Below are positions 1,840 through 48,285 of a stretch of 64,000 nt of DNA, in pieces. The position numbers and the translations under genes are program-made. The stretch lies in the IMG/VR virus record IMGVR_UViG_3300010354_000044, positions 107,985 to 171,984 of that record, one strand, 5' to 3'. Origin of the DNA: a virus. Under the pieces are notes generated by a model, which made no database searches, was not told the DNA's origin, and worked only from the letters and a program-made list of their open reading frames with translations. Numbering within the stretch: the stretch's first letter is position 1; each line of letters begins with the position of its first letter.

Positions 1840-2310
1840 GTGTACAAACAAAAACGTAAGCCCAAGAAGAGAGAAGTTGGTCGGCACAGCCCCGGCGCTC
1901 AGTCTCGGCTGGATAAGTTTGTACAGACCCATAGAGCAGAGAAGGAAGCTAATCCTCTGCCCTTGGATTTCTACCGCCCTATTTATCTCCCCAATAACTT
2001 CTGGGAGACTCTACGCAGCTACGGCAATCTGTACGTGTACGCACGTATGCTAGATAAAAAGGGCGCAGGGGTTGTTACCTTTAATACGGACTTTGCAGCG
2101 GGCGAGCTCTACATGATGCCCCGGACGTGCAAAGATTATATCCGCACCTGCCTGCGGAAAGGTTTGTTTAGGCATATAGAGTGGTTAGACAAAACGACCG
2201 TCAAGGTCTATTACAACTCTATGCCTAAGCTAATGTTGGGCTTAGAAGCAGAGTCCAACACTGAGATTCTCTTGGAGAGTCCGGAGGACATCCTGAGAAA
2301 AAAGTCCTGA
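1840..2310 (+). CDS. Putative DNA-binding protein, zero-frame product (156 aa)
   Basis: The N-terminus is very basic (VYKQKRKPKKREVGRHS). The middle (about residues 65-125) looks like a winged-helix fold, with YVYARMLDKKG followed by YMMPRTCKDYIRTCLRKGLF. The GTG start is the only start after an in-frame TAG at 1831 and has no Shine-Dalgarno, so initiation may be weak or leaderless. Translation would end at TGA 2308-2310. Just before that stop lie A_AAA_AAG and, downstream, a 10-bp hairpin, so some ribosomes probably shift to -1 and continue to 2972. The function is unknown; a replication or transcription regulator is my inference. Confidence 0.65.
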   Translation: MYKQKRKPKKREVGRHSPGAQSRLDKFVQTHRAEKEANPLPLDFYRPIYLPNNFWETLRSYGNLYVYARMLDKKGAGVVTFNTDFAAGELYMMPRTCKDYIRTCLRKGLFRHIEWLDKTTVKVYYNSMPKLMLGLEAESNTEILLESPEDILRKKS

Positions 2311-2335
2311 TTCCTGAGGATAGTGTCCTCAGGAA
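2298..2335 (+). promoter_or_regulatory. Programmed -1 ribosomal frameshift signal
   Basis: The heptamer A AAA AAG occupies 2298-2304 in the correct phase for a -1 slip (zero-frame AAA, AAG). The zero-frame TGA follows at 2308. After a 6-nt spacer there is a perfect hairpin, TTCCTGAGGA (2311-2320), loop TAGTG, TCCTCAGGAA (2326-2335). After the slip the -1 frame is open to 2972. All three parts of the standard bacterial -1 frameshift signal are present. What I see is the sequence; that frameshifting occurs is inference. Confidence 0.75.
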
Positions 2336-2972
2336 GCAGGAACAGAGTCAGTTTCGCGCTCAGCAGGAGCTGCGCACTAAGCTGCAGCAAAAGCTGAAAG
2401 ACGAACTAAACGTAAGAAAGTTAGGTGCTGAAGGAGAAGAGCATGTAGAAAAAGAGTTTAAGGACCAAATGCTCACGCTTGCCGACTTCTTTAGAAAACC
2501 CTCTGTTAATGCCGGGGGCACTGTTTTGAAGAGGAAAAGTAAACGCCGAAAACGGCGGAATAAAGCTCTTATTTATCGCGGCAAGCGGTTCACGTTGGCG
2601 CATCCAGACGCCCCTCTGTTTGGAGCTACCCAGAAGGCGATCGGCTTAGAGATAGGCCGGGCCCGCAAGACTGTATCCCGACGGCTATCTAATAGCTATC
2701 GGGAGAAAGTGGCAAAGAAATATAAGATCACTATCAAACCCCTTCAGCGCACCCAGGTGTTAATCCATTTGGGTGATGCCGCTGCTGCAGAACAGGCCCA
2801 GCGAGAGTCGCTTGAGCGCCTCCCGATTGCGGTCTACAACGATAAATCTTATATTTGCCGGCCTAACGTCTACAAGGGGACAGCAGAGACACCAAGAAGC
2901 CAACGGCGGGTGCGTCAGCACCTTCGCCAACTTGAAGCTAAGCTACAAAAGCGTAGCTCCGATGATGCTTGA
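2304..2972 (+). CDS. -1 frame extension: coiled-coil and HTH domain
   Basis: This frame is open from 2265 but has no ATG before 2469, while the sequence upstream of that ATG clearly looks coding (Q/E/K-rich, coiled-coil-like). This supports expression by frameshift from the 1840 gene; the fusion would be about 377 residues. After the coiled coil come a basic patch (KRKSKRRKRRNK) and a helix-turn-helix-like segment (QKAIGLEIGRARKTVSRRL). Internal initiation at 2469 would give a 167-residue protein with the HTH alone. I infer a regulator or replication protein made in two forms. Confidence 0.6.
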   Translation, partial: VLIPEDSVLRKQEQSQFRAQQELRTKLQQKLKDELNVRKLGAEGEEHVEKEFKDQMLTLADFFRKPSVNAGGTVLKRKSKRRKRRNKALIYRGKRFTLAHPDAPLFGATQKAIGLEIGRARKTVSRRLSNSYREKVAKKYKITIKPLQRTQVLIHLGDAAAAEQAQRESLERLPIAVYNDKSYICRPNVYKGTAETPRSQRRVRQHLRQLEAKLQKRSSDDA

Positions 2973-3370
2973 TTTTATCAAGCGTTGCTTCTTGGGTTTG
3001 GTTGCTTCAACACTAGCGCCCCTCCGCTAGGTTGTAGCAGCGAAGCGAAAAATTTATTGAAATAATATTTTCTTCGCTTCGCTGCTGGATTTTCAGCTCC
3101 GCCAGTTTTTTTTGGTGAGCTGCCCCGTGAAAAATTTTTTTATTATTTTTTTTTTGCGGGGCATGAAAGGGGGGTTATTCTTACACAAGGAAAAAGCTAG
3201 GGTATCCTTAGCTTGATTTTTAGTGTAAAGTTATTTTTTATATTAATTTCGGGAATTAAGGGATTAAAGTTAAACCTATAGTTTTTGATAGGGGCTGCGC
3301 CCCTATCTTTTTTTTTGATTAACTTTCTAAATGTCCTTTAGAAGTTTGTATGGGTACAAACTGAATCAAC
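2973..3370 (+). other. Hairpin-rich non-coding region
   Basis: No convincing gene is present. The stretch is AT-rich and holds several inverted repeats: CTAGCG/CGCTAG at 3013-3030; a perfect 14-bp stem AGCAGCGAAGCGAA (3036-3049) with TTCGCTTCGCTGCT (3073-3086); TGCCCCG (3121-3127) with CGGGGCA (3157-3163) around a T-rich loop; and a terminator at 3287-3316. A small RNA, a regulatory leader or a replication-related region are all possible. Nothing seen decides between them. Confidence 0.5.
3287..3316 (+). terminator. Strong intrinsic terminator
   Basis: GATAGGGGC (3287-3295), loop TGC, GCCCCTATC (3299-3307), then nine T residues. The stem is perfect and GC-rich at the loop end, a classical rho-independent terminator for transcripts coming from the left. 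Confidence 0.85.
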
Positions 3371-3769: not shown

Positions 3770-4236
3770 TAGAGCTCGCGTTGCAGTTAACCCAGGAAGG
3801 CCTTCGGGTGCAGTATTATCTCCCTTCTGGTAGGACTCTCTTAAGCTCTCTGCGCGTCATTGACGGCGAGGAGTATCAACATCGGGTATCCAAAGAAGGA
3901 CATTACTACTGGTATAAGATCTTCGTCAATGCCGTGCGTATTCAATTCAACACAGTCCCATACCGGTGGACATTTGAATACGATACGATCCCAGACTACC
4001 AGCACGGCTCTAGCACTACCGGGAAAGAATTTATCGTAAATCCTTTATGTGGGGGCCGTCCTGGGTATGCCGACTGGAATAGGTTACCCTTTAGCGTGCA
4101 AGACGTTAAGGACAATCTCCGGCCCTTCTACCTGCGTAATATCGGTGATCGCCAGCCTGGAATCCTTGATTATGTAGACCTTGTTCCACAAATGCCCGTA
4201 AACTTTAATGAAATCAAAGGAAGCTATGATGTGTAG
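3715..4236 (+). CDS. Orphan protein, 173 aa
   Basis: A soluble, tyrosine-rich protein with no recognised motif. The ATG lies inside the end of the previous gene (55-nt overlap in another frame), with AAGGAAG about 11 nt upstream as a possible Shine-Dalgarno. The overlap suggests translational coupling. The C-terminus runs to 1 nt before the first of three small membrane proteins. Length and composition support a real gene, but the function is unknown. Confidence 0.6.
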   Translation: MSYFTGYRQRLQLNHQNLVELALQLTQEGLRVQYYLPSGRTLLSSLRVIDGEEYQHRVSKEGHYYWYKIFVNAVRIQFNTVPYRWTFEYDTIPDYQHGSSTTGKEFIVNPLCGGRPGYADWNRLPFSVQDVKDNLRPFYLRNIGDRQPGILDYVDLVPQMPVNFNEIKGSYDV

Positions 4237-4237
4237 A

Positions 4238-4414
4238 ATGACTAAAAGGCAACTACGAAAGATCAACCTATATTACTGTGTTTCTGCATCTCTTGTAATC
4301 TTACTTGCATTACTCTTGCAGTCTCCAATATCTAACCCGCTGACTCCCTTCCTAATTTCAGCAGTCTTTGTAGTTGGCATTTGGCTCTGGTTCATGAACC
4401 TGTTTGTCCGCTAA
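4238..4414 (+). CDS. Membrane microprotein, tandem paralogue 1 (58 aa)
   Basis: The product starts MTKRQLRKINLYY, a short basic head, followed by two membrane helices (about residues 14-30 and 36-54) and ends with W-x-x-x-N-L-x-x-R. Upstream ATGs at 4208 and 4226 are possible, but the two following paralogues begin with the same K-x-Q-x-R-x-x-x-x-Y-Y head, which fixes the start here. It is the first of three tandem paralogues, so local duplication is clear. The function is unknown; an inner-membrane role such as lysis timing or superinfection exclusion is a guess. Confidence 0.7.
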   Translation: MTKRQLRKINLYYCVSASLVILLALLLQSPISNPLTPFLISAVFVVGIWLWFMNLFVR

Positions 4415-4448
4415 CTTTCTAAACCCTACCCCGAGGAAAATAACAATA
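4415..4448 (+). repeat. Leader repeat, copy 1
   Basis: TCTAAACCCTACCCC followed by GAGGAAAATA is nearly identical to the stretch ending just before the ATG at 4882. Each copy supplies an AGGAAAA Shine-Dalgarno. This suggests that the duplication that made the tandem genes included the leader. Confidence 0.6.
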
Positions 4449-4452
4449 TACA

Positions 4453-4623
4453 ATGCCTAAAAAACAAGTACGCGCATTCAATAACTATTACCTCGCTTTT
4501 GCAACTCCCGTGCTTTTACTCGGGCTGCTTCTGCAGTCCGCAATAGGATTTAATGCCGTAACCGTTATCGTAACCATGGCAGTCGCCATAATAGGCGTTT
4601 GGCTATTGCTCAAAAATTTGTAG
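4453..4623 (+). CDS. Membrane microprotein, tandem paralogue 2 (56 aa)
   Basis: A 56-residue two-helix membrane protein that starts MPKKQVRAFNNYY and ends GVWLLLKNL. Residue pattern, length and topology match the genes on either side. The leader carries CGAGGAAAATAACAATATACA before the ATG, so the Shine-Dalgarno is rather far away. Amino-acid identity to its neighbours is low outside the head and tail, so the duplication is not recent or the copies evolve fast, as is common for phage membrane proteins facing host or competing phages. Confidence 0.65.
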   Translation: MPKKQVRAFNNYYLAFATPVLLLGLLLQSAIGFNAVTVIVTMAVAIIGVWLLLKNL

Positions 4624-4674
4624 AGTCAGCGTCGGAAGGATGTCACTAATTTAGAAGCGCTTAAAGGTAACAAA

Positions 4675-4854
4675 GTGAATAGAAAACAACTACGGACAAT
4701 CACACAATATTACATCTTCTTTGCAGGGCCTGTAATTAGCTTCTCAGCACTGCGGTACGTACTAGCAGGCCCTGATTTAAGCTTTATCGTCATACCCTTG
4801 TTAGTGATTCTAATAGGCCTTTGGGTCTTGTTTCTAAACCTAAAAGCTCGCTAA
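4675..4854 (+). CDS. Membrane microprotein, tandem paralogue 3 (59 aa)
   Basis: This begins with GTG and encodes VNRKQLRTITQYY, two membrane helices and a C-terminal GLWVLFLNLKAR, the same plan as the two preceding genes. AAAGGTAACAAA lies just before the GTG as a possible ribosome binding site. It ends 27 nt before the ATG of the RNA repair gene. Three diverged copies in tandem suggest either selection for variety or a hetero-oligomeric membrane complex; neither can be shown from sequence. Confidence 0.65.
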   Translation: MNRKQLRTITQYYIFFAGPVISFSALRYVLAGPDLSFIVIPLLVILIGLWVLFLNLKAR

Positions 4855-4856
4855 TT

Positions 4857-4881
4857 GTCTAAACCCTACCCCAAGGAAAAT
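4857..4881 (+). repeat. Leader repeat, copy 2 with ribosome binding site
   Basis: This is a second copy of TCTAAACCCTACCCC + AAGGAAAAT, directly before ATG 4882. The AAGGAAAA at good spacing supports 4882 rather than the in-frame TTG at 4855 as the start of the repair gene. The repeat lies downstream of paralogue 3 just as copy 1 lies downstream of paralogue 1. Confidence 0.6.
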
Positions 4882-7077
4882 ATGGCTACCATCAACCTGC
4901 TACCTAATTACCTTTACCTCGCGTCAGGGCCCTCGGCGTCGGGTAAGAGCACAGCACTTAAGGGCCTGCCTGCAGGGGTAGTGGTGTCCTCAGACAGCTT
5001 GAGAACCCAAATATTCGGTCTTGAAGCTGATACTGTAGAGGGTAACCTACTAGCCCCTCCTAGCCTAAGACCCCGCCCTGTCAACGATAGCTTTATCTTT
5101 GACACCATGAGACAGATCGTGGAGGCCCGTCTTAAAGCAGGACTGACAACAGTCGTAGACGCAACTTTGTTAACCGACCGTGACCGCAAGCAGTTCGTGG
5201 ATATAGCTGCTAGCTACAACGTCCCTGTTCAGATTTTGATCTGGGATGTTCCCGCCGAGCAGCTGACTACTAGAGATGCAGATCGTCAGTTCCGGGTAGG
5301 GGCTGAGGTTATCCAGCGACAACTGGAGCGCTTTGAGCGTACATCCCAGTACTCCTATATTGTAGACGACTACTTTGAGCTTGAAATAGCTCACCTAACA
5401 GTAGCTAGTAGCGTAGAACTGGATTTCGTGGGTGACATCCACGGCTGCTACGACCAGTTAATAGAACTGATTGAAAAGCTAGGCTATGTTATTGGCGAGG
5501 ACGGTATTGCTAGGTATGCTGGTAATGAGCCCCGGCGTCTGTGCTTTTTGGGCGACTATGTAGACCGAGGGCCCAAGTCCTTAGAGGTACTCAAATTCAT
5601 TTACCGGAATACGCCTACGCATTGGGCGTTGCTGGGGAACCATGATAGTAACCTTCTCAAGGGGTTGCTAGGAAAACCCGTAACCTCCAAGGCCACACAG
5701 GAGACCCTCCATGAAGTGATGGTCGCCAAGGCGGAGAAGTGGGTTACAGAGCTACTGACCTCACTGCCTCGTTATCTAACCTGGCGGAATGTCGTTATTT
5801 GCCATGCCGACATCCAGAGGCTTAACTTACCTCAGGAGACAACTCAGTGCGTTTACGGTTGTAGTAAACTGAACAGGCCTATAAACGCCGATGAAATCTG
5901 GAGTAAGACTGAGAAGCGCCTGCTTATCCGCGGTCACTTTACTCCTGACCACGAGTACGATAACGTCATTACCCTGGACGGTAATCCGGGCTATGGCGGT
6001 ACTATTAAAGCAGGGCGTTTTGCTGTTGCTCAAGTTGCGGGTCGGAAGCATGATAACTTCTTAATCCAGCAATGGATTGAATTCTCATTAGGGCCTACGG
6101 AAGATTATGAAGAACGCAAGAAGACTGTAATAGGTTTTCGCCTTGCCGCTATGCCAAAAGAGTTGGTTAGCACGGCTACATCGCCTTGCGGCCACCTCAA
6201 GCTGTTTAAATACACGCCTAATGCCTTTAGACAGTCCTTTAAATCTGAAGGGCCTTGGCTGGAGTACCCTGACCTTAAGTACGCCCGAGGCCTTGTCGTA
6301 GGCCTTAACCACCAACCGGTGAACACGGTCTTTCCTAAAATTCCTAGTTACACCGAAGGAATTGATCCGAGCAAGCAGGTGATTGCCGCGACAAAGTTGA
6401 ACGGCTTTCTCCTAGCTACATTCAGACATCCTTACAAAGAGGATGTGGTCTTCACTACTACCGGGTCGTTTGACTCTGAGTACGTAAAGATGGGCCGTGC
6501 ATTGTTCTACAAGCACGCAAAACAGTCTCGGCAGCAGCTCCTAAACAGCCCGGGATTGACATTCTTGTGGGAGGTTATAGACCCTAATAAAGACCAAAAT
6601 GTCCACCCTATTGCCTCGTCCGCAGGCATCTACCTAATTGCTGTAGGGCAAAATGGGGTAATCCTCCCCGAGGAGGAGATGCAAAGCTACGCCGGCAACT
6701 TGAATGTCAACTGTGCCAGTCATGTACAGACTGACTTCGGGTCAGTCCTAGAAATGGCCCGCACCAGCGACGGCGAGGGCTATATGATTAGGGACTTGGA
6801 AGGTAACTACCTTGCAAAGCTCAAATCACCGTTTTACCTGACTGTCAAGAAGTTTATGCGTCTATCGCCAAAGGCGGGCGCACAGCTCTTTAACGACCCT
6901 ATTAATTTCAACTTTGAGTATATTTGGCAGCAGTGCATGGACAACCCTTATGCCAACGACCTTTATACCCGGCAGACAGCTATCGCCGAAGCTATCCGAA
7001 CACACTTTTCCTGTGAAACTTGGCAACAAGCAGATAGTTTAACCCGTAGAGAATTTCTCTATCGCATGTTAAGCTAA
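4882..7077 (+). CDS. pnkp-like: Trifunctional RNA repair enzyme: kinase-phosphatase-ligase
   Basis: The 731-residue product has three domains. Residues 10-165 are a P-loop polynucleotide 5'-kinase (GPSASGKST at 16-24). Residues 178-370 are a PPP-type metallophosphatase with GDIHG (about 184), GDYVDRGP (about 225) and GNHD (about 253). Residues 420-731 are a nucleotidyltransferase RNA ligase, with probable motif I K-L-N-G (about 503), FLWEVIDP (about 561), EGYMIR (about 632) and a KLK motif V (about 647). The architecture matches bacterial Pnkp, which heals and seals cleaved tRNA ends, while the ligase motifs look closer to T4 Rnl1. A phage-carried single-chain repair enzyme would counter host anticodon nucleases. 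The start is set by AAGGAAAA before the ATG. Confidence 0.85.
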   Translation: MATINLLPNYLYLASGPSASGKSTALKGLPAGVVVSSDSLRTQIFGLEADTVEGNLLAPPSLRPRPVNDSFIFDTMRQIVEARLKAGLTTVVDATLLTDRDRKQFVDIAASYNVPVQILIWDVPAEQLTTRDADRQFRVGAEVIQRQLERFERTSQYSYIVDDYFELEIAHLTVASSVELDFVGDIHGCYDQLIELIEKLGYVIGEDGIARYAGNEPRRLCFLGDYVDRGPKSLEVLKFIYRNTPTHWALLGNHDSNLLKGLLGKPVTSKATQETLHEVMVAKAEKWVTELLTSLPRYLTWRNVVICHADIQRLNLPQETTQCVYGCSKLNRPINADEIWSKTEKRLLIRGHFTPDHEYDNVITLDGNPGYGGTIKAGRFAVAQVAGRKHDNFLIQQWIEFSLGPTEDYEERKKTVIGFRLAAMPKELVSTATSPCGHLKLFKYTPNAFRQSFKSEGPWLEYPDLKYARGLVVGLNHQPVNTVFPKIPSYTEGIDPSKQVIAATKLNGFLLATFRHPYKEDVVFTTTGSFDSEYVKMGRALFYKHAKQSRQQLLNSPGLTFLWEVIDPNKDQNVHPIASSAGIYLIAVGQNGVILPEEEMQSYAGNLNVNCASHVQTDFGSVLEMARTSDGEGYMIRDLEGNYLAKLKSPFYLTVKKFMRLSPKAGAQLFNDPINFNFEYIWQQCMDNPYANDLYTRQTAIAEAIRTHFSCETWQQADSLTRREFLYRMLS

Positions 7078-35234: not shown

Positions 35235-37286
35235 TTAACCGTTATACCTGTAAAGCGGAGTTTGTCCCGACACATTTTGTACAGCCCTAATTTGGGGAAT
35301 TGTACGCTCCGACCACACAGCGACATTCTCTGTGTAATTCTGGACAACCTGACTTCTTCTAACTGACATAGTGCCCCCAAACAAATAGCCCTTTTTGCTG
35401 CTGGCGGCTCCACTCATACTGGCGCGTCTTGAGTTAAAGCTGTTTAGATTTAAGGCTAGATTACTCAAGCTTTGGTTAACTGAATTAAACCTTACAGCTG
35501 AATTCCCCCCGATGATAGGAGTTGTTGTAGAAGAGCCTGCAAATATATAGGCAGAGGTTTCGTCAGCAAATGAAGCGGCGCCAAATACGTTAGCGCCTAA
35601 GTCTAAAGAGCCAACCGCGTTAACACTGGTTGAATTCAAAGCAATAGAGCGGACACTATTTACGATGGTGGTATTATTAACCCCACCAAATATGTAACCT
35701 ATGGATATACTAGATGCCCCAGAGTAGAAAGCTTCTGACGTACTAGAATAGGTCGTGGATGCCAAGCTAATAGCTAAAGCATTAGCGGCTTCTGTCACAT
35801 ATAACAGCTCCACCCCAGCATTACTACTTAGATGAGTCCCATTCGTTTGGACACCTCCAACGAAATAACCTTTTGTGTTATCTCCAAAGGCTGCGCCCCC
35901 AGATGGGTTTAATGCAGTTAAAGCTGCTAGGTTTAATTGAACTGAAGATTGTTTTACAAAATTGAATTTTTCTACAGTCCAGGTCCCTGACGTAGTATTG
36001 ATGGGTGTTATAGAGCCAAGGCCGGTTATATACATGGCCGCTGACGAGGCTACTGAAGTAGCATCAGCTTTCGTTTGCACCAAGCCTGTATAAACTTCAG
36101 CAGCAATTGCATCAGCACCTGGAATAGCTGAGATAACCTTCAACGTCTCAGTCTGGATATCAAGACGCTGGATAGTCTTACTGTAGCCAGTTATCCCATG
36201 TCCGCCCGCAATATAAATAGCCCCAGGCAGCGCTGTCACCTGTTGAGGCTGCCCAATAGTGCTTGTGTAAACCGCCGGCATCTTGTAGTTAAAGACTTCA
36301 CAAGATGCATTCTGTAGTTCAGCAATAGACCGTGCGTAATCTAAATTTACCCGGCGCTGTTGGTCAGCTAGAAAATTAGTATAAGCACGTCCAGCCGCTT
36401 CAATTCTGTTCCTTAAATCAGGGACCCACTCAAGGTCTCCCCCACTAGGAGCAACTTGAATCATTGCTAGTGGGCTGGGTCTATTAGTTGTTAGAATATC
36501 ATTTAAACTAATAGACCCAGGCCCACTCCCGCCACTAGACTGATTGACCCACTCCAAGGACATAGCCGAGGAGGGTCCTTTAATAGCTAAGACGCGCCCT
36601 ACAGCAGCACCGGAAGCGTTAATAGACCCTAAAGTAACAAGTTGATTAGACGCAACTAAACTTAGGATGTTATTGGATACGGTGAAGTCCGAGCTTAAGG
36701 CAATAGCCGCTGTTCCAGACTGCTGGCCTAAGGCAATCGTTCCCGGTGAGTTCTGTATCGTAGCCGGGGCCACAACGGTCGCTGGCGTTGGTAGGCTAAT
36801 TTGGGAAGCAGTAACGGCTGCATTACTTATTTTGCCCCAAGGAACAGCACTAATTGACAGCTGCTCGCCTGATAGCTGAAATTCCGTACTTAGAGTATAA
36901 GCACGTCCGGCGCCTCCGAATCCCACAGGTAACTGGCGATCAGAGAGTAGAAGATTCTCTGCTCGTAATGTTCCTGTTAGTCGAGAAGCATCTAGGCTCT
37001 GGAGCTTTAAAGCTCCTCCCACAACATCAAATTCAGGCCCTAAAGGGACATAAGTGTTGCCAACAACAACCTGCCGAGGAAGACCTGCAAAACTTAGTTT
37101 ACGTGAGCTAGGACTCCAACTTAACCCAGGCCCTGCAATATCGTCATTTTCACTTAGAGTTAGCTGGACATTTAGATTAACTTTTTCGGCAAAATTCCGT
37201 AAGGTATCTCCCTGTCCGTCTCCGGGAGTTATCCCCGTGTTAATTTGCTTCAGACCGTTAGGAAGGTCAGGTAAATTTATAGCCAT
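35235..37286 (-). CDS. Tail fibre with Kelch-like repeats, 683 aa
   Basis: The N-terminal 70 residues carry TGITPGDGQGDTLRNFAEKVN, a motif typical of the start of phage tail fibres and baseplate wedge proteins, and AGPGLSW, shared with the 37865 gene product. After a linker (residues 240-310) the C-terminal half has at least five repeats with Y-(I/F)-x-(G/A)-G, namely YIAGG, YFVGG, YIFGG, YIFAG and YLFGG, about 50 residues apart. This is the signature of a Kelch-type beta-propeller, which would form the receptor-binding tip. The host ligand is unknown. Confidence 0.7.
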   Translation of the reverse strand: MAINLPDLPNGLKQINTGITPGDGQGDTLRNFAEKVNLNVQLTLSENDDIAGPGLSWSPSSRKLSFAGLPRQVVVGNTYVPLGPEFDVVGGALKLQSLDASRLTGTLRAENLLLSDRQLPVGFGGAGRAYTLSTEFQLSGEQLSISAVPWGKISNAAVTASQISLPTPATVVAPATIQNSPGTIALGQQSGTAAIALSSDFTVSNNILSLVASNQLVTLGSINASGAAVGRVLAIKGPSSAMSLEWVNQSSGGSGPGSISLNDILTTNRPSPLAMIQVAPSGGDLEWVPDLRNRIEAAGRAYTNFLADQQRRVNLDYARSIAELQNASCEVFNYKMPAVYTSTIGQPQQVTALPGAIYIAGGHGITGYSKTIQRLDIQTETLKVISAIPGADAIAAEVYTGLVQTKADATSVASSAAMYITGLGSITPINTTSGTWTVEKFNFVKQSSVQLNLAALTALNPSGGAAFGDNTKGYFVGGVQTNGTHLSSNAGVELLYVTEAANALAISLASTTYSSTSEAFYSGASSISIGYIFGGVNNTTIVNSVRSIALNSTSVNAVGSLDLGANVFGAASFADETSAYIFAGSSTTTPIIGGNSAVRFNSVNQSLSNLALNLNSFNSRRASMSGAASSKKGYLFGGTMSVRRSQVVQNYTENVAVWSERTIPQIRAVQNVSGQTPLYRYNG

Positions 37287-45120: not shown

Positions 45121-45463
45121 GAACACCGAAGAGTCTGCGCAAGTGAGGCTTAAAGGAGGCGACCTTGATTCAATTGTGACAACTACATCCCCGAGCGTTA
45201 ACGTTTCCAATACGGCTACACAGATTGATTCAGAAGCATTGGTCCTAATTCAAAGTTATCGGGCCAAGCTTGCTGAACTAGAGAAAAGCTTTGCGGAGCT
45301 GCAGCAACATATGGTTGAGTTAAAGGAGCAGTACGCAGTAGTTTACGGGGCCCTAGATGGTACCTATAAGCTATGTGCCGCTCTTTATCGTATAGACAAT
45401 CCGCAAGAAGCTATTAATCCGGCTGACGGAACTATTAAACGGGAGGCTACTGTTGGAAGTTAA
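45110..45463 (+). CDS. Coiled-coil protein, 117 aa
   Basis: The disordered head (residues 1-40, T/S-rich) precedes a coiled coil (about 45-85, LVLIQSYRAKLAELEKSFAELQQHMVELKEQ). It overlaps recA-like by 11 nt and the polymerase gene by 11 nt, so it is translated with both. By position it could be a recombination mediator (UvsY-like), though no sequence signature of that family is visible. Confidence 0.55.
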   Translation: MTSKNTEESAQVRLKGGDLDSIVTTTSPSVNVSNTATQIDSEALVLIQSYRAKLAELEKSFAELQQHMVELKEQYAVVYGALDGTYKLCAALYRIDNPQEAINPADGTIKREATVGS

Positions 45464-46859
45464 AGGTCAAGCCTTTAACTATATTACGGATGGAGCCCAG
45501 TTAGCCGCTGGGCTTCACCGTTTAAAGGCTTCAGGATCAGAATTGGCATTAGATACAGAGACAGGGATTAGACCCGAATGGCGTAATAAGGTTACTGAAT
45601 CTCGCGGCGATCCAATTCAGCCTCGTCTATGTCCCCACTTAGGGCATATTTGCCTGCTAACCTTAACCCCAGTTAATGGCAAACCTGAGGTTTTTGATTT
45701 TGTGTGGTTGCGGCATAACAAAGTAGATTTAAATCCTATCTACGAATTACTAGAGCAAAAGACCTTAATCGCGCACAAAGCGCAGTTTGATGGAAAAATG
45801 CTACTAGGAGAATTCAAAAAGAATACACTTCGTTGGTGGTGTACCCTTCAGGCAGACAAAGTCCTAAGTAACGCCACAGGCAGTAAGTATGGTCTAATCC
45901 GCGGCCATTCTCTTTACTCCTGCTTACGAGATTACCTAGGTATTACCTTAAAGGGTAAGGGAAGTATTCAAACTCAGGATTGGGATCTAGACCTTGAAAA
46001 ACGGACGTTGGATAATCCGTATTGGCTAGAGATGCTTAACTATGCTGCTGCGGACACTAGATACCTACACCAGCTAAAAGCTAAATTAGAAGGGTGGATA
46101 TGTAATCCACTGCCTAGTGACTGGATGAACCGACACGACACCCCAGATGAGGCCTGTGGGTTTGGTATGGCGCGTACCATGCAGCTAGAGAACGACATGA
46201 TTAATATCTACATAGAAATGGAATATTACGGTTTTCCTACTTCTATAGATTTAATTAAAGAGTTTCAGGAAGGGATAGAGATTGAAATGTATGACCTTGC
46301 CTGCGACCTCTGTGATCTCCTAGGTATTGAGTTACCTCCGCCTGATTTAGGTTTGGACTATATAAAACCATACCCCAAAACTCTTAAGGTTTTTAATAAC
46401 CCGACTAAGGTTGTTGAACTCCTTAATGAACATAAGATCGTTACCGATAACGCTCAGAAATTAACCTTAACCCGGGTCTTAAGTTTGATGGATGAAATCT
46501 ATAAACAACAGACTACAGAGGGTAGCGATCAAGGTATTAGTTACCTCAATGACGAAGAAGAGTCCAGATATAAACTTATAGAAGACTATGAGTTATCTGA
46601 CCTTGTACAAGGAAGTAAAATCCTTAATACGTTGCTACAGTATAAAAGGGCTGTAAAACAACATGGCATGAGTATGCTCCGGTTTGTTAATCCAGCTACC
46701 GGCAATATTCATCCGGATGTTAAAGGCCCTGTATCCACTGGGCGCATGGCTATGGGGAGCCCTAACCTGCAGCAAGTATCTAATTCTAGTAAAGTACTTA
46801 TAGAGTTGGATATTGTAGATGGCACTATTCAGCACTACAGTAGTAGTAAGTTAGTTTAA
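45453..46859 (+). CDS. polA-N: DNA polymerase family A, N-terminal half (exonuclease and thumb/palm start), 468 aa
   Basis: GGGAGG lies 6 nt before TTG 45453, which sets this unusual start. The 3'-5' exonuclease has all motifs: D34/E36 in LDTETG, D113 in AHKAQFDG and Y197...D201 in YAAADTRYL. The thumb follows, then the family A palm segment K-G-P-V-S-T-G-R-M-x-x-x-S-P-N-L-Q-Q-V (about residues 420-440), after which the similarity stops and about 25 unrelated residues lead to TAA. Motifs A, B and C are missing here and are encoded by the gene at 47332. So the polymerase is split between the TGR/NLQ motif and motif A. Confidence 0.8.
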   Translation: MEVKGQAFNYITDGAQLAAGLHRLKASGSELALDTETGIRPEWRNKVTESRGDPIQPRLCPHLGHICLLTLTPVNGKPEVFDFVWLRHNKVDLNPIYELLEQKTLIAHKAQFDGKMLLGEFKKNTLRWWCTLQADKVLSNATGSKYGLIRGHSLYSCLRDYLGITLKGKGSIQTQDWDLDLEKRTLDNPYWLEMLNYAAADTRYLHQLKAKLEGWICNPLPSDWMNRHDTPDEACGFGMARTMQLENDMINIYIEMEYYGFPTSIDLIKEFQEGIEIEMYDLACDLCDLLGIELPPPDLGLDYIKPYPKTLKVFNNPTKVVELLNEHKIVTDNAQKLTLTRVLSLMDEIYKQQTTEGSDQGISYLNDEEESRYKLIEDYELSDLVQGSKILNTLLQYKRAVKQHGMSMLRFVNPATGNIHPDVKGPVSTGRMAMGSPNLQQVSNSSKVLIELDIVDGTIQHYSSSKLV

Positions 46860-47332
46860 TGCTTGTCATCAAATTGACTACCAGTGAATTAGTAATATTA
46901 TCTTTATTTAAAGTTGATGCTAACCGTTCTGTTTACAACCCGGATTTAAACCTATCTGGTAAAGCTTATGGTTTAGCCGTCAGATCATTGAAGCGGCGGG
47001 GGTTTCTAGTAAGTACTAAAACCCCCTTAAAACTAACTAAAAGAGGAAAATTATTTGCAAAGATGAGTACCCACCCCCCTACGTCAGAACCCTACGCAAT
47101 TACAATTAACCAATTCCTTTCTATTACTCCAGGTACTGCCATTAGTACTGAAGATGGACGCATTTATATAAACTCTGCCGATGGCGGCAGTTATGAGATA
47201 GTACTAGCCTTACAGGACCTTACTGATCCTGAGGCCGAAGTTAAGCCTATCAGTGAACTGAGGATTGAAAATGGCGATTTGTTAGAAGAAGGAGACCTAG
47301 CTAATGTAAGCTGTAACGAAGGTATGTTCTAA
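46859..47332 (+). CDS. Orphan between polymerase halves, winged-helix head, 157 aa
   Basis: Residues 1-70 (LTTSELVILSLFKVD, YGLAVRSLKRRGFLVSTKTPLKLTKRG) read as a winged helix: three helices then a K-x-T hairpin. The C-terminal 80 residues are beta-rich and acidic. It shares 1 nt with each neighbouring gene (TAATG and TAATG), so all three are coupled. No homing-endonuclease motif (LAGLIDADG, GIY-YIG, HNH) is seen. It may be an inserted gene, or a bridge subunit that holds the two polymerase halves together. Confidence 0.55.
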   Translation: MLVIKLTTSELVILSLFKVDANRSVYNPDLNLSGKAYGLAVRSLKRRGFLVSTKTPLKLTKRGKLFAKMSTHPPTSEPYAITINQFLSITPGTAISTEDGRIYINSADGGSYEIVLALQDLTDPEAEVKPISELRIENGDLLEEGDLANVSCNEGMF

Positions 47333-48285
47333 TGGAGCTATTCTTTGAGTGCGCCCCTAAGAATATATTCCTAGCACCCCCAGGCTACTTCTGGTCCGGA
47401 TTAGATTACAGCGGGCAAGAGCTCATGATCAGCGCTGTTGTGTCAGGCGATACAACGATGCTGGAAGCCTTTAGACAGCCAGAGCTAAAACCGCACCCAG
47501 AGACCGGAGAGCTCTGCCCAAACCCCTACGCGGACTTACATACAATTACAACCAGAAGCGCAGTCTTTCCTAAAATATTCGAAGGCCATGAGTGGTATGA
47601 CTGGGTGAAGATAGCTAAAACTTACAAAGTGCCTAACTTTACAGAGGCGCCCCGTCAGTACGGGAAAAAGACGAATTTCTCGGCTATCTATTTATGTAAC
47701 GCACCTACGCTAGCCATTAACTTAGGCATTCCTGAGCAGCTAGCAGGAAACATTCTACAAGGCCATCGTAAAACCTATGCCGGATACTACCACTGGGCAG
47801 AGCAACAAGGGGCTATTGGGGAGGCCTGTGGGTGGATTAGCACTCCTTGGCTAAAGCGTGTCCGGGGAGTCCATGAAGCTAATGCTAAAGGAGGAGGGTC
47901 AGCAAAGCTGCTAGCTCCTAATGTTTGCATTCAGGGGACAGGGGCCGATATTGCGAAGGCGGCTATGTGTAGAATATTCCGCTGGAAAGAGAAGCTCAAT
48001 AAGCCTATAGAGTTTGCAAAACGCCCTCGTTTAATCGGACAGGTTCATGACGAGTTAGTACCACTTATTCCTGGAAAGTGCACGTTAAACCTGGATAAAT
48101 CTAAGCTAGAGGAACGTGATAACATGACAGTTGTTACAAAGGCTTGTTGGGATGTACCCGAGGCATCCTATGAATTAGCCTTACAAATCCGTCAGATAAT
48201 GATTGATGTCGAAACGGAGGCCTTTGATGGTGTATTGGAAGGTCGGGTAGATATGCCAAACCCAGCCCCCTGGTGGTCAAAATAA
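47332..48285 (+). CDS. polA-C: DNA polymerase family A, C-terminal half (palm/fingers), 317 aa
   Basis: Motif A is W-S-G-L-D-Y-S-G-Q-E-L (D25), motif B R-Q-Y-G-K-K-T-N-F-S-A-I-Y (108-120) and motif C Q-V-H-D-E-L-V (H239, D240, E241), so both metal-binding aspartates are present. FSAIY replaces the usual NFGVLYG. The product starts FFECAPKNIFLAPPGYF, which equals the stretch right before motif A in intact enzymes. With the upstream half it makes a complete polymerase, so assembly of two chains (or trans-splicing) is needed. ATG 47332 has GAAGG 9 nt upstream. Confidence 0.85.
   Translation: MELFFECAPKNIFLAPPGYFWSGLDYSGQELMISAVVSGDTTMLEAFRQPELKPHPETGELCPNPYADLHTITTRSAVFPKIFEGHEWYDWVKIAKTYKVPNFTEAPRQYGKKTNFSAIYLCNAPTLAINLGIPEQLAGNILQGHRKTYAGYYHWAEQQGAIGEACGWISTPWLKRVRGVHEANAKGGGSAKLLAPNVCIQGTGADIAKAAMCRIFRWKEKLNKPIEFAKRPRLIGQVHDELVPLIPGKCTLNLDKSKLEERDNMTVVTKACWDVPEASYELALQIRQIMIDVETEAFDGVLEGRVDMPNPAPWWSK

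Follow-up and report, generated by a model that had tools for sequence, protein, structure and literature searches.

Organization of the locus

The window analysed here is a stretch of 64,000 nucleotides (nt) comprising bases 107,985-171,984 of the 171,984-base virus record IMGVR_UViG_3300010354_000044, the single record of the site described below. Near its beginning a gene at 1840-2972 on the plus strand is divided into two open reading frames (ORFs), the second of which lies in the -1 frame relative to the first. A preliminary description based on the sequence had proposed that a programmed -1 frameshift joins both ORFs into one DNA-binding protein. The locus contains the following features, given with the type of evidence:

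1840-2310, plus strand: ORF0, GTG start, 156 amino acids (aa), basic N-terminus and winged-helix domain, zero-frame short product (profile match, E 6.1e-10)
2020-2220, plus strand: winged-helix domain, residues 61-127 (AlphaFold2; profile match to residues 62-136)
2283-2288, plus strand: putative Shine-Dalgarno-like element GGAGGA (sequence; distance rule from PMC5009743)
2298-2304, plus strand: slippery heptamer A_AAA_AAG (sequence)
2298-2972, plus strand: extension in the -1 frame, comprising 224 codons counted from the heptamer, with a linker helix, a helix-turn-helix (HTH) domain and a C-terminal N-x-Y motif region (profile match, E 2.8e-10)
2305-2341, plus strand: downstream stem-loop with the upper stem 2311-2320/2326-2335 (folding, inverted-repeat search)
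2308-2310, plus strand: zero-frame stop TGA (sequence)
2313-2468, plus strand: ATG-less part of the -1 frame, holding residues Q167 and S170 (codon usage, alignment)
2469-2471, plus strand: first ATG of the -1 frame, a possible independent start with AAGGA upstream, downstream of the conserved linker (sequence)
2619-2687, plus strand: second helix-turn-helix, FGATQKAIGLEIGRARKTVSRRL (profile match, alignment)
2973-3370, no strand: AT-rich, intergenic, containing inverted repeats (arms of 23 nt at 3036-3058/3064-3086), putative origin or terminators (inverted-repeat search)

The -1 frame is open up to the TGA at 2970-2972, and the joined product would comprise 377 aa. Between 2313 and 2468 this frame contains neither ATG nor GTG nor TTG, the earliest being found at 2469. 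Codon-usage scoring, trained on 73 genes common to the phage and a related phage, nevertheless assigned this stretch a score of 14.0 in the -1 frame, which is above 98% of 572 right-frame windows from genes of this phage and was reached by none of 1144 wrong-frame windows. The ORF map and the codon usage bear out the earlier claim that the -1 frame is free of stops to 2972 and that its first codons are coding despite the lack of an ATG.

A predicted frameshift signal at the junction of the two frames

The heptamer is in phase with ORF0, where it provides two lysine codons, and the zero-frame TGA follows 3 nt past it. A 6-nt spacer leads to a perfect 10-bp stem (TTCCTGAGGA/TCCTCAGGAA) with a 5-nt loop at 2311-2335. 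All of these elements were found at the positions given in the preliminary description, which had overlooked the GGAGGA located 9 nt 5' of the heptamer. The stem is part of an inverted repeat with 16-nt arms (2305-2320/2326-2341, 94% complementary), and its predicted fold has a 3-nt loop and thus one pair more than the 5-nt loop described first.

The arrangement corresponds to a dnaX-type cassette in four features. These are an X_XXY_YYZ heptamer in zero-frame phase ahead of a stop, a 3' structure at a distance of 5-9 nt (here the 10-bp stem at 6 nt), a -1 frame encoding a genuine protein continuation and, commonly but not obligatorily, a Shine-Dalgarno-like element 9-14 nt upstream. According to one review, Shine-Dalgarno stimulators of -1 slips lie 9-14 nt from the shift site, and E. 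coli dnaX has A_AAA_AAG as its shift site, accompanied by a Shine-Dalgarno element on the 5' side and by a stem-loop (PMC5009743).

The 41 nt past the A-site codon of the heptamer fold at -25.5 kcal/mol (z -5.8), a value equalled by 0 of 200 shuffles and by 26 out of 49,128 41-nt windows sampled from the 172-kb record (both strands, step 7). The sequence AAAAAAG occurs 33 times in this record, and the slip site at 2298-2304 is followed by the strongest fold of all. Most of these occurrences are out of phase or outside ORFs; at least 70 in-phase upstream ORF codons were found in 5 cases, and in 2 of these, namely at 2298 and in a tail-chaperone-like gene at 36,353 of the record on the minus strand, the -1 frame runs well beyond the zero-frame stop. 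At our site no stop interrupts the -1 frame from 2265 onward and the zero frame terminates at 2308, which confines the switch to about 43 nt. The chance of encountering both heptamer and fold there is about 7e-7 (approximately 14 in-phase positions x 9.6e-5 per position x 5.3e-4), provided that both are independent and that exactly A_AAA_AAG is required.

Relationship to pDU1-type RepA proteins

Direct searches were largely without result. Close homologues of ORF0 or the extension were not confirmed in viral_contigs, and the phage collection contained no match to ORF0 and one meaningless match to the extension at E 10. The extension had no match by direct search in the plasmid collection. Neither half exceeded the curated cut-offs of Pfam, PHROGs or NCBIfam; the labels YppF and Apidaecin, suggested by weak matches, were rejected. 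Among solved structures, sequence search yielded one chance match for ORF0 (E 0.29) and none for the extension.

The first link was provided by a weak plasmid match of ORF0 (E 0.1) to a 284-aa protein encoded by the Pseudanabaena galeata plasmid pPg_02. In pairwise comparison this protein, which is specified by one ORF, shares 38% identity over 72 aa with ORF0 (E 9e-9) and 26% over 119 aa with the extension (E 7e-5), in the same order as the phage halves. Further homologues are encoded by plasmids of Tolypothrix sp. PCC 7601 and Allocoleopsis franciscana PCC 7113 and by plasmid pDU1 of Nostoc sp. PCC 7524; one record of the pDU1 protein labels the product RepA. A profile of the four plasmid proteins matched ORF0 with a probability of 91% (E 1e-6) and the extension with a probability of 88% (E 3e-6), each in a single comparison. 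The same profile matched 8 of 386 genomes from the phylum of Anabaena sp. 4-3, 5 of which encode both domains in one open frame, and 3 genomes, in which the match covered no more than 57 profile positions, were left out. One protein found twice (L126, identical to L130) was counted once and a truncated copy (L127) was left out. In 2 of the 9 homologues (L134 and L135 from genomes G062 and G378) a Prim-Pol domain precedes the winged helix (E 1.6e-21 and 1.5e-23), an arrangement that fits a predicted role in replication.

A profile of the nine homologues, from which the protein of the window was excluded, was compared with 13,323 stop-to-stop ORFs from 12 phage contigs. It matched only ORF0 and the extension, with the E values listed above; the next match was at 0.43. 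The match of the extension is independent because the extension was never used as a query toward the nine homologues. That of ORF0, which was the search query, is partly due to selection. The profile alignment of the fusion is unbroken over residues 62-195 and runs through the join at residue 155. ORF0 alone scored 38.2 bits (residues 62-136) in comparison to 51.1 bits for the -1 fusion (62-195), a gain of 13 bits. The whole fusion reached 89.7 bits, which was equalled neither by 1000 shuffles of residues 156-210 nor by 1000 shuffles of residues 156-180, whereas the other two frames of the same DNA yielded 74.4 and 75.0 bits.

Q167 (2337-2339) and S170 (2346-2348) are invariant in 10 of 10 aligned sequences, the protein of the window among them. 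Their codons are located past the zero-frame stop and well upstream of the ATG at 2469. Therefore, a protein of this family can arise from this DNA only by a frame change near 2298, and we regard this as the strongest single argument for such a change. The joined product contains, in this order, the winged helix, the Q-x-x-S linker, the second HTH and the C-terminal N-x-Y of pDU1-type RepA. These comparisons identify ORF0 and the extension as the two halves of a protein from the family of pDU1-type RepA, which is encoded on cyanobacterial plasmids.

Structure prediction provided additional information. In the AlphaFold2 model of ORF0, calculated from two sequences, residues 61-127 form a winged helix in the order helix-strand-helix-helix-strand-strand with block pLDDT values of 75-92 (mean of the whole model 61.2). 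A fold search with this model gave no match at E <= 0.001, the best being 4e-3. The 50 fold matches listed were mainly crystals of the RepE54 initiator, which is heavily deposited in structure collections, and MarR-type regulators, with pPS10 RepA on rank 31. These matches back a predicted winged helix and nothing beyond. The model of the extension has a mean pLDDT of 47.5, with a long N-terminal helix of fair, partly low confidence and a C-terminal part of mostly low confidence. The winged helix that had been suspected in the first part, and the long helix and HTH in the second, are thus supported by homology and by the models, the latter at partly low confidence for the extension.

Probable programmed frameshifting and alternative explanations

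The two frames encode halves of one family. Their join falls within sequence that runs on without interruption in the homologues, and the three-part signal is located at precisely this place. It is quite probable from these sequence data that programmed -1 frameshifting yields two products, a winged-helix form of 156 aa and a Rep-family protein of 377 aa, the presumed replication initiator.

Several points weigh against this interpretation. Identity to pDU1 RepA amounts to only 17-25% in the alignments, so that the proposed initiator function rests on distant homology, and the homologues were reached via the weak match at E 0.1. The Shine-Dalgarno core was found in 3 of 24 conserved-start genes of the phage, near the background of 9.8%, and because such cores are this rare the putative stimulator GGAGGA may be idle. 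A profile that included the protein of the window did not detect the Rep-like gene in any of the 19 other phage records searched, many being fragments. Furthermore, all 9 homologues, whether from plasmids or from genomes, have an unbroken ORF. A_AAA_AAG together with a strong stem at the join occurs in none of them. Unbroken homologues without the heptamer had been named in advance as an observation that would speak against frameshifting, and taken literally the plasmid homologues represent this case; in our reading, they show that the two ORFs form a single protein whose division is peculiar to this phage.

These homologues are also compatible with a plain assembly or sequencing indel, i.e. 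one A was lost and the true gene is a single unbroken ORF. A six-A homopolymer in a single record is a plausible place for such an error, and no second copy of the slip site was found among viral_contigs with a pattern in which 5 to 8 bases replaced the run (0 matches, near records possibly left out). Since an indel itself favours a run of A, only the stem (about 5e-4) and GGAGGA count against this explanation. It leaves unexplained why a stem equalled in so few windows of the record, as well as GGAGGA, are both positioned at canonical distances, and these two elements make an indel unlikely.

Transcriptional slippage, in which RNA polymerase would insert an A in the run such that some messages encode the long form, is in our view still less likely. 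The sequence of an A run followed by a hairpin would suit it. However, the run consists of six A only, and A runs of more than 7 are named for transcript slippage (PMC3711429). Phase, spacer and upstream GGAGGA match a ribosomal signal, and the chaperone-like gene of the phage uses the same heptamer while other members of that gene have G_GGA_AAG without such a run.

Slightly less probable again is a split Rep consisting of ORF0 and an independent protein starting at ATG 2469. The sequence AAGGACCAAATG at 2457-2471 could serve this start, and the resulting ORF 2469-2972 (167 aa) scores 42.0 bits with the profile for its own part. Yet the preceding stretch 2313-2468, which has no ATG, GTG or TTG, is coding according to codon usage and homology and carries the family-invariant residues. 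A decaying gene killed by a recent frameshift mutation, which might account for its presence in 1 of 20 phage records searched, is the least probable explanation, as neither half has a further stop, both halves and the linker show phage-like codon usage, and a strong signal lies at the join.

Comparison with known frameshift systems and possible function

Programmed frameshifting in tailed phages is known mainly from tail assembly chaperones and in bacteria from dnaX and transposase genes. E. coli dnaX shares with the phage gene the heptamer A_AAA_AAG, an upstream Shine-Dalgarno-like element, a simple stem-loop and the presence in a replication gene (PMC5009743). In contrast, the slip in dnaX truncates the product (gamma) and the zero frame encodes the long form tau, whereas in the phage gene the zero-frame product is the short one and slipping leads to the long form. 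In this respect the phage gene resembles the IS3-type and IS1 transposase genes (OrfA/OrfAB and InsA/InsAB'), in which a short DNA-binding product is made in the zero frame and a -1 slip gives the long active product (PMC5009743). The phage product differs from these in being a Rep-family protein rather than a transposase. InsA acts as a repressor. With the pDU1 RepA family the phage gene shares both domains, their order and the invariant residues; the plasmid members are single ORFs, and the division at a slip site is confined to the phage gene.

Tail assembly chaperones of the lambda G/GT type also rely on a -1 slip on a phage gene, and the phage has a gene that looks like one (shift at G000:36353), although the protein is unrelated to the Rep-like product and the position is different. 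An assignment of the Rep-like gene itself as a tail assembly chaperone was rejected, as it has no homology to the chaperone-like gene of the phage family and this separate conserved gene fits the role better. The contrast to the usual chaperone case drawn in the preliminary description was right, and its guess that an unusual frameshifted regulator or replication protein is encoded gains support from the homology to RepA.

We propose that a pDU1 RepA-type initiator gene (1840-2972) was taken up by a large phage and that one base splits it into two frames. Ribosomes would translate the winged-helix part in the zero frame up to A_AAA_AAG. There, between the upstream GGAGGA and the downstream stem, some of them would slip by -1, bypass the TGA and go on to translate the linker helix and the HTH domain of the second part. 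The long form may act at an origin and start replication, as pDU1 RepA and the fusions to Prim-Pol suggest. For pDU1, a 1,747-bp region is reported as enough for replication, a statement about the region and not the RepA ORF alone (PMC13416735). The intergenic stretch 2973-3370, directly behind the Rep-like gene, could be a candidate origin. The short form may be retained because it binds DNA alone and thereby represses or competes, or because it keeps the amount of initiator in check; such a role is a guess by analogy to the OrfA/OrfAB-type transposase genes.

A more specific and tentative idea is a switch set by frameshifting, in which the short form restrains the long initiator at the origin or at its own promoter and the slip ratio determines the time or frequency of replicon firing. 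This ratio would be sensitive to the state of the ribosomes and to the lysine tRNA of the infected cell. A lead in this direction comes from the Tolypothrix plasmid homologue, in which two slippery heptamers lie in phase at the corresponding position, followed by a moderate fold (-12.4 kcal/mol). A -1 slip there would terminate within 3 codons, and a comparable short form would arise the other way round. pDU1 also contains two slippery heptamers near the end of the winged-helix part, with stops within 6 codons. In both cases the heptamers may be due to chance in AT-rich DNA.

Signals of this kind are known. An instance on a replication initiator was not found in print in our limited literature search, and this is a weak negative for plasmid-type initiators as most subscription journals were outside the search. 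If confirmed, production of a plasmid-type initiator by frameshifting would extend this mechanism to a new purpose, translational control of replication initiation. Ordinary annotation would split the phage Rep gene into two unknown proteins. The comparison also places pDU1 RepA, whose replicon is much employed in vectors for cyanobacteria, in a broader family together with the Prim-Pol fusions and a phage protein.

Related phages, second frameshift gene and host

The capsid protein was identified as major head protein by PHROGs, and 17 related loci were found via this protein. The nearest related record comprises 207,855 bases and shares 82% capsid identity. The Rep-like gene was probably gained from a plasmid, since it was not found in the 19 other, often fragmentary, phage records.

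The second gene with a -1 frameshift is located outside the window at G000:35811-37006 on the minus strand (L023), with the shift at A_AAA_AAG. It is common to 11 of 12 contigs and consists of an ORF of 251-260 codons followed by a homologous -1-frame extension; it was not found in the remaining contig (G002), the end of which probably precedes that place. The heptamer is A_AAA_AAG in 4 contigs (two of them, G015 and G017, being alike) and G_GGA_AAG in 7. Its stem and the Rep stem have CTGAGG/CCTCAG in common. This gene looks like a tail assembly chaperone, and no library named it as such, the best PHROG being of unknown function (E 0.006). Of the four reference loci in this library comparison, one (L032:18999-19612) belongs to the capsid gene and was dropped. 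The same A_AAA_AAG at this conserved gene indicates that host ribosomes probably slip on this heptamer. A T_TTA_AAG at G000:111678 was set aside as a frameshift site because both joined genes have their own ATG starts.

The host of this large phage is probably a cyanobacterium, as suggested by the cyanobacterial plasmid homologues and by the best polymerase scores among phages, which were obtained with Microcoleus and Microcystis phages, the latter with the same exonuclease/polymerase gene split. In the window, a family A-like DNA polymerase is divided into an exonuclease part, a 157-aa ORF and a polymerase part (45453-48285), and Microcystis phage MaMV-DC shows a similar split. A phage-plasmid lifestyle was considered and rejected: the capsid protein had no match in the plasmid collection, and neither ParA (AAA_31) nor a tyrosine integrase was found in the record. 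Of six records searched, one related phage record contained a ParA-type ATPase (G001:3113-3613) and another a tyrosine integrase (G021:9328-9834).

Additional observations

An ORF on the minus strand at G024:28083-29281, presumably encoding a TnpB protein, consists of two frames broken at AAAAAAG without a strong stem behind. In the window, three small adjacent ORFs (68, 56 and 59 aa) at 4208-4854 resemble related membrane proteins by eye. A single ORF at 4855-7077 unites an AAA domain of the kinase type with a calcineurin-like phosphatase and an RNA ligase part. Another phage record contains an ORF at G011:82000-83697 which we take to encode a PAS-GGDEF-EAL signalling protein.
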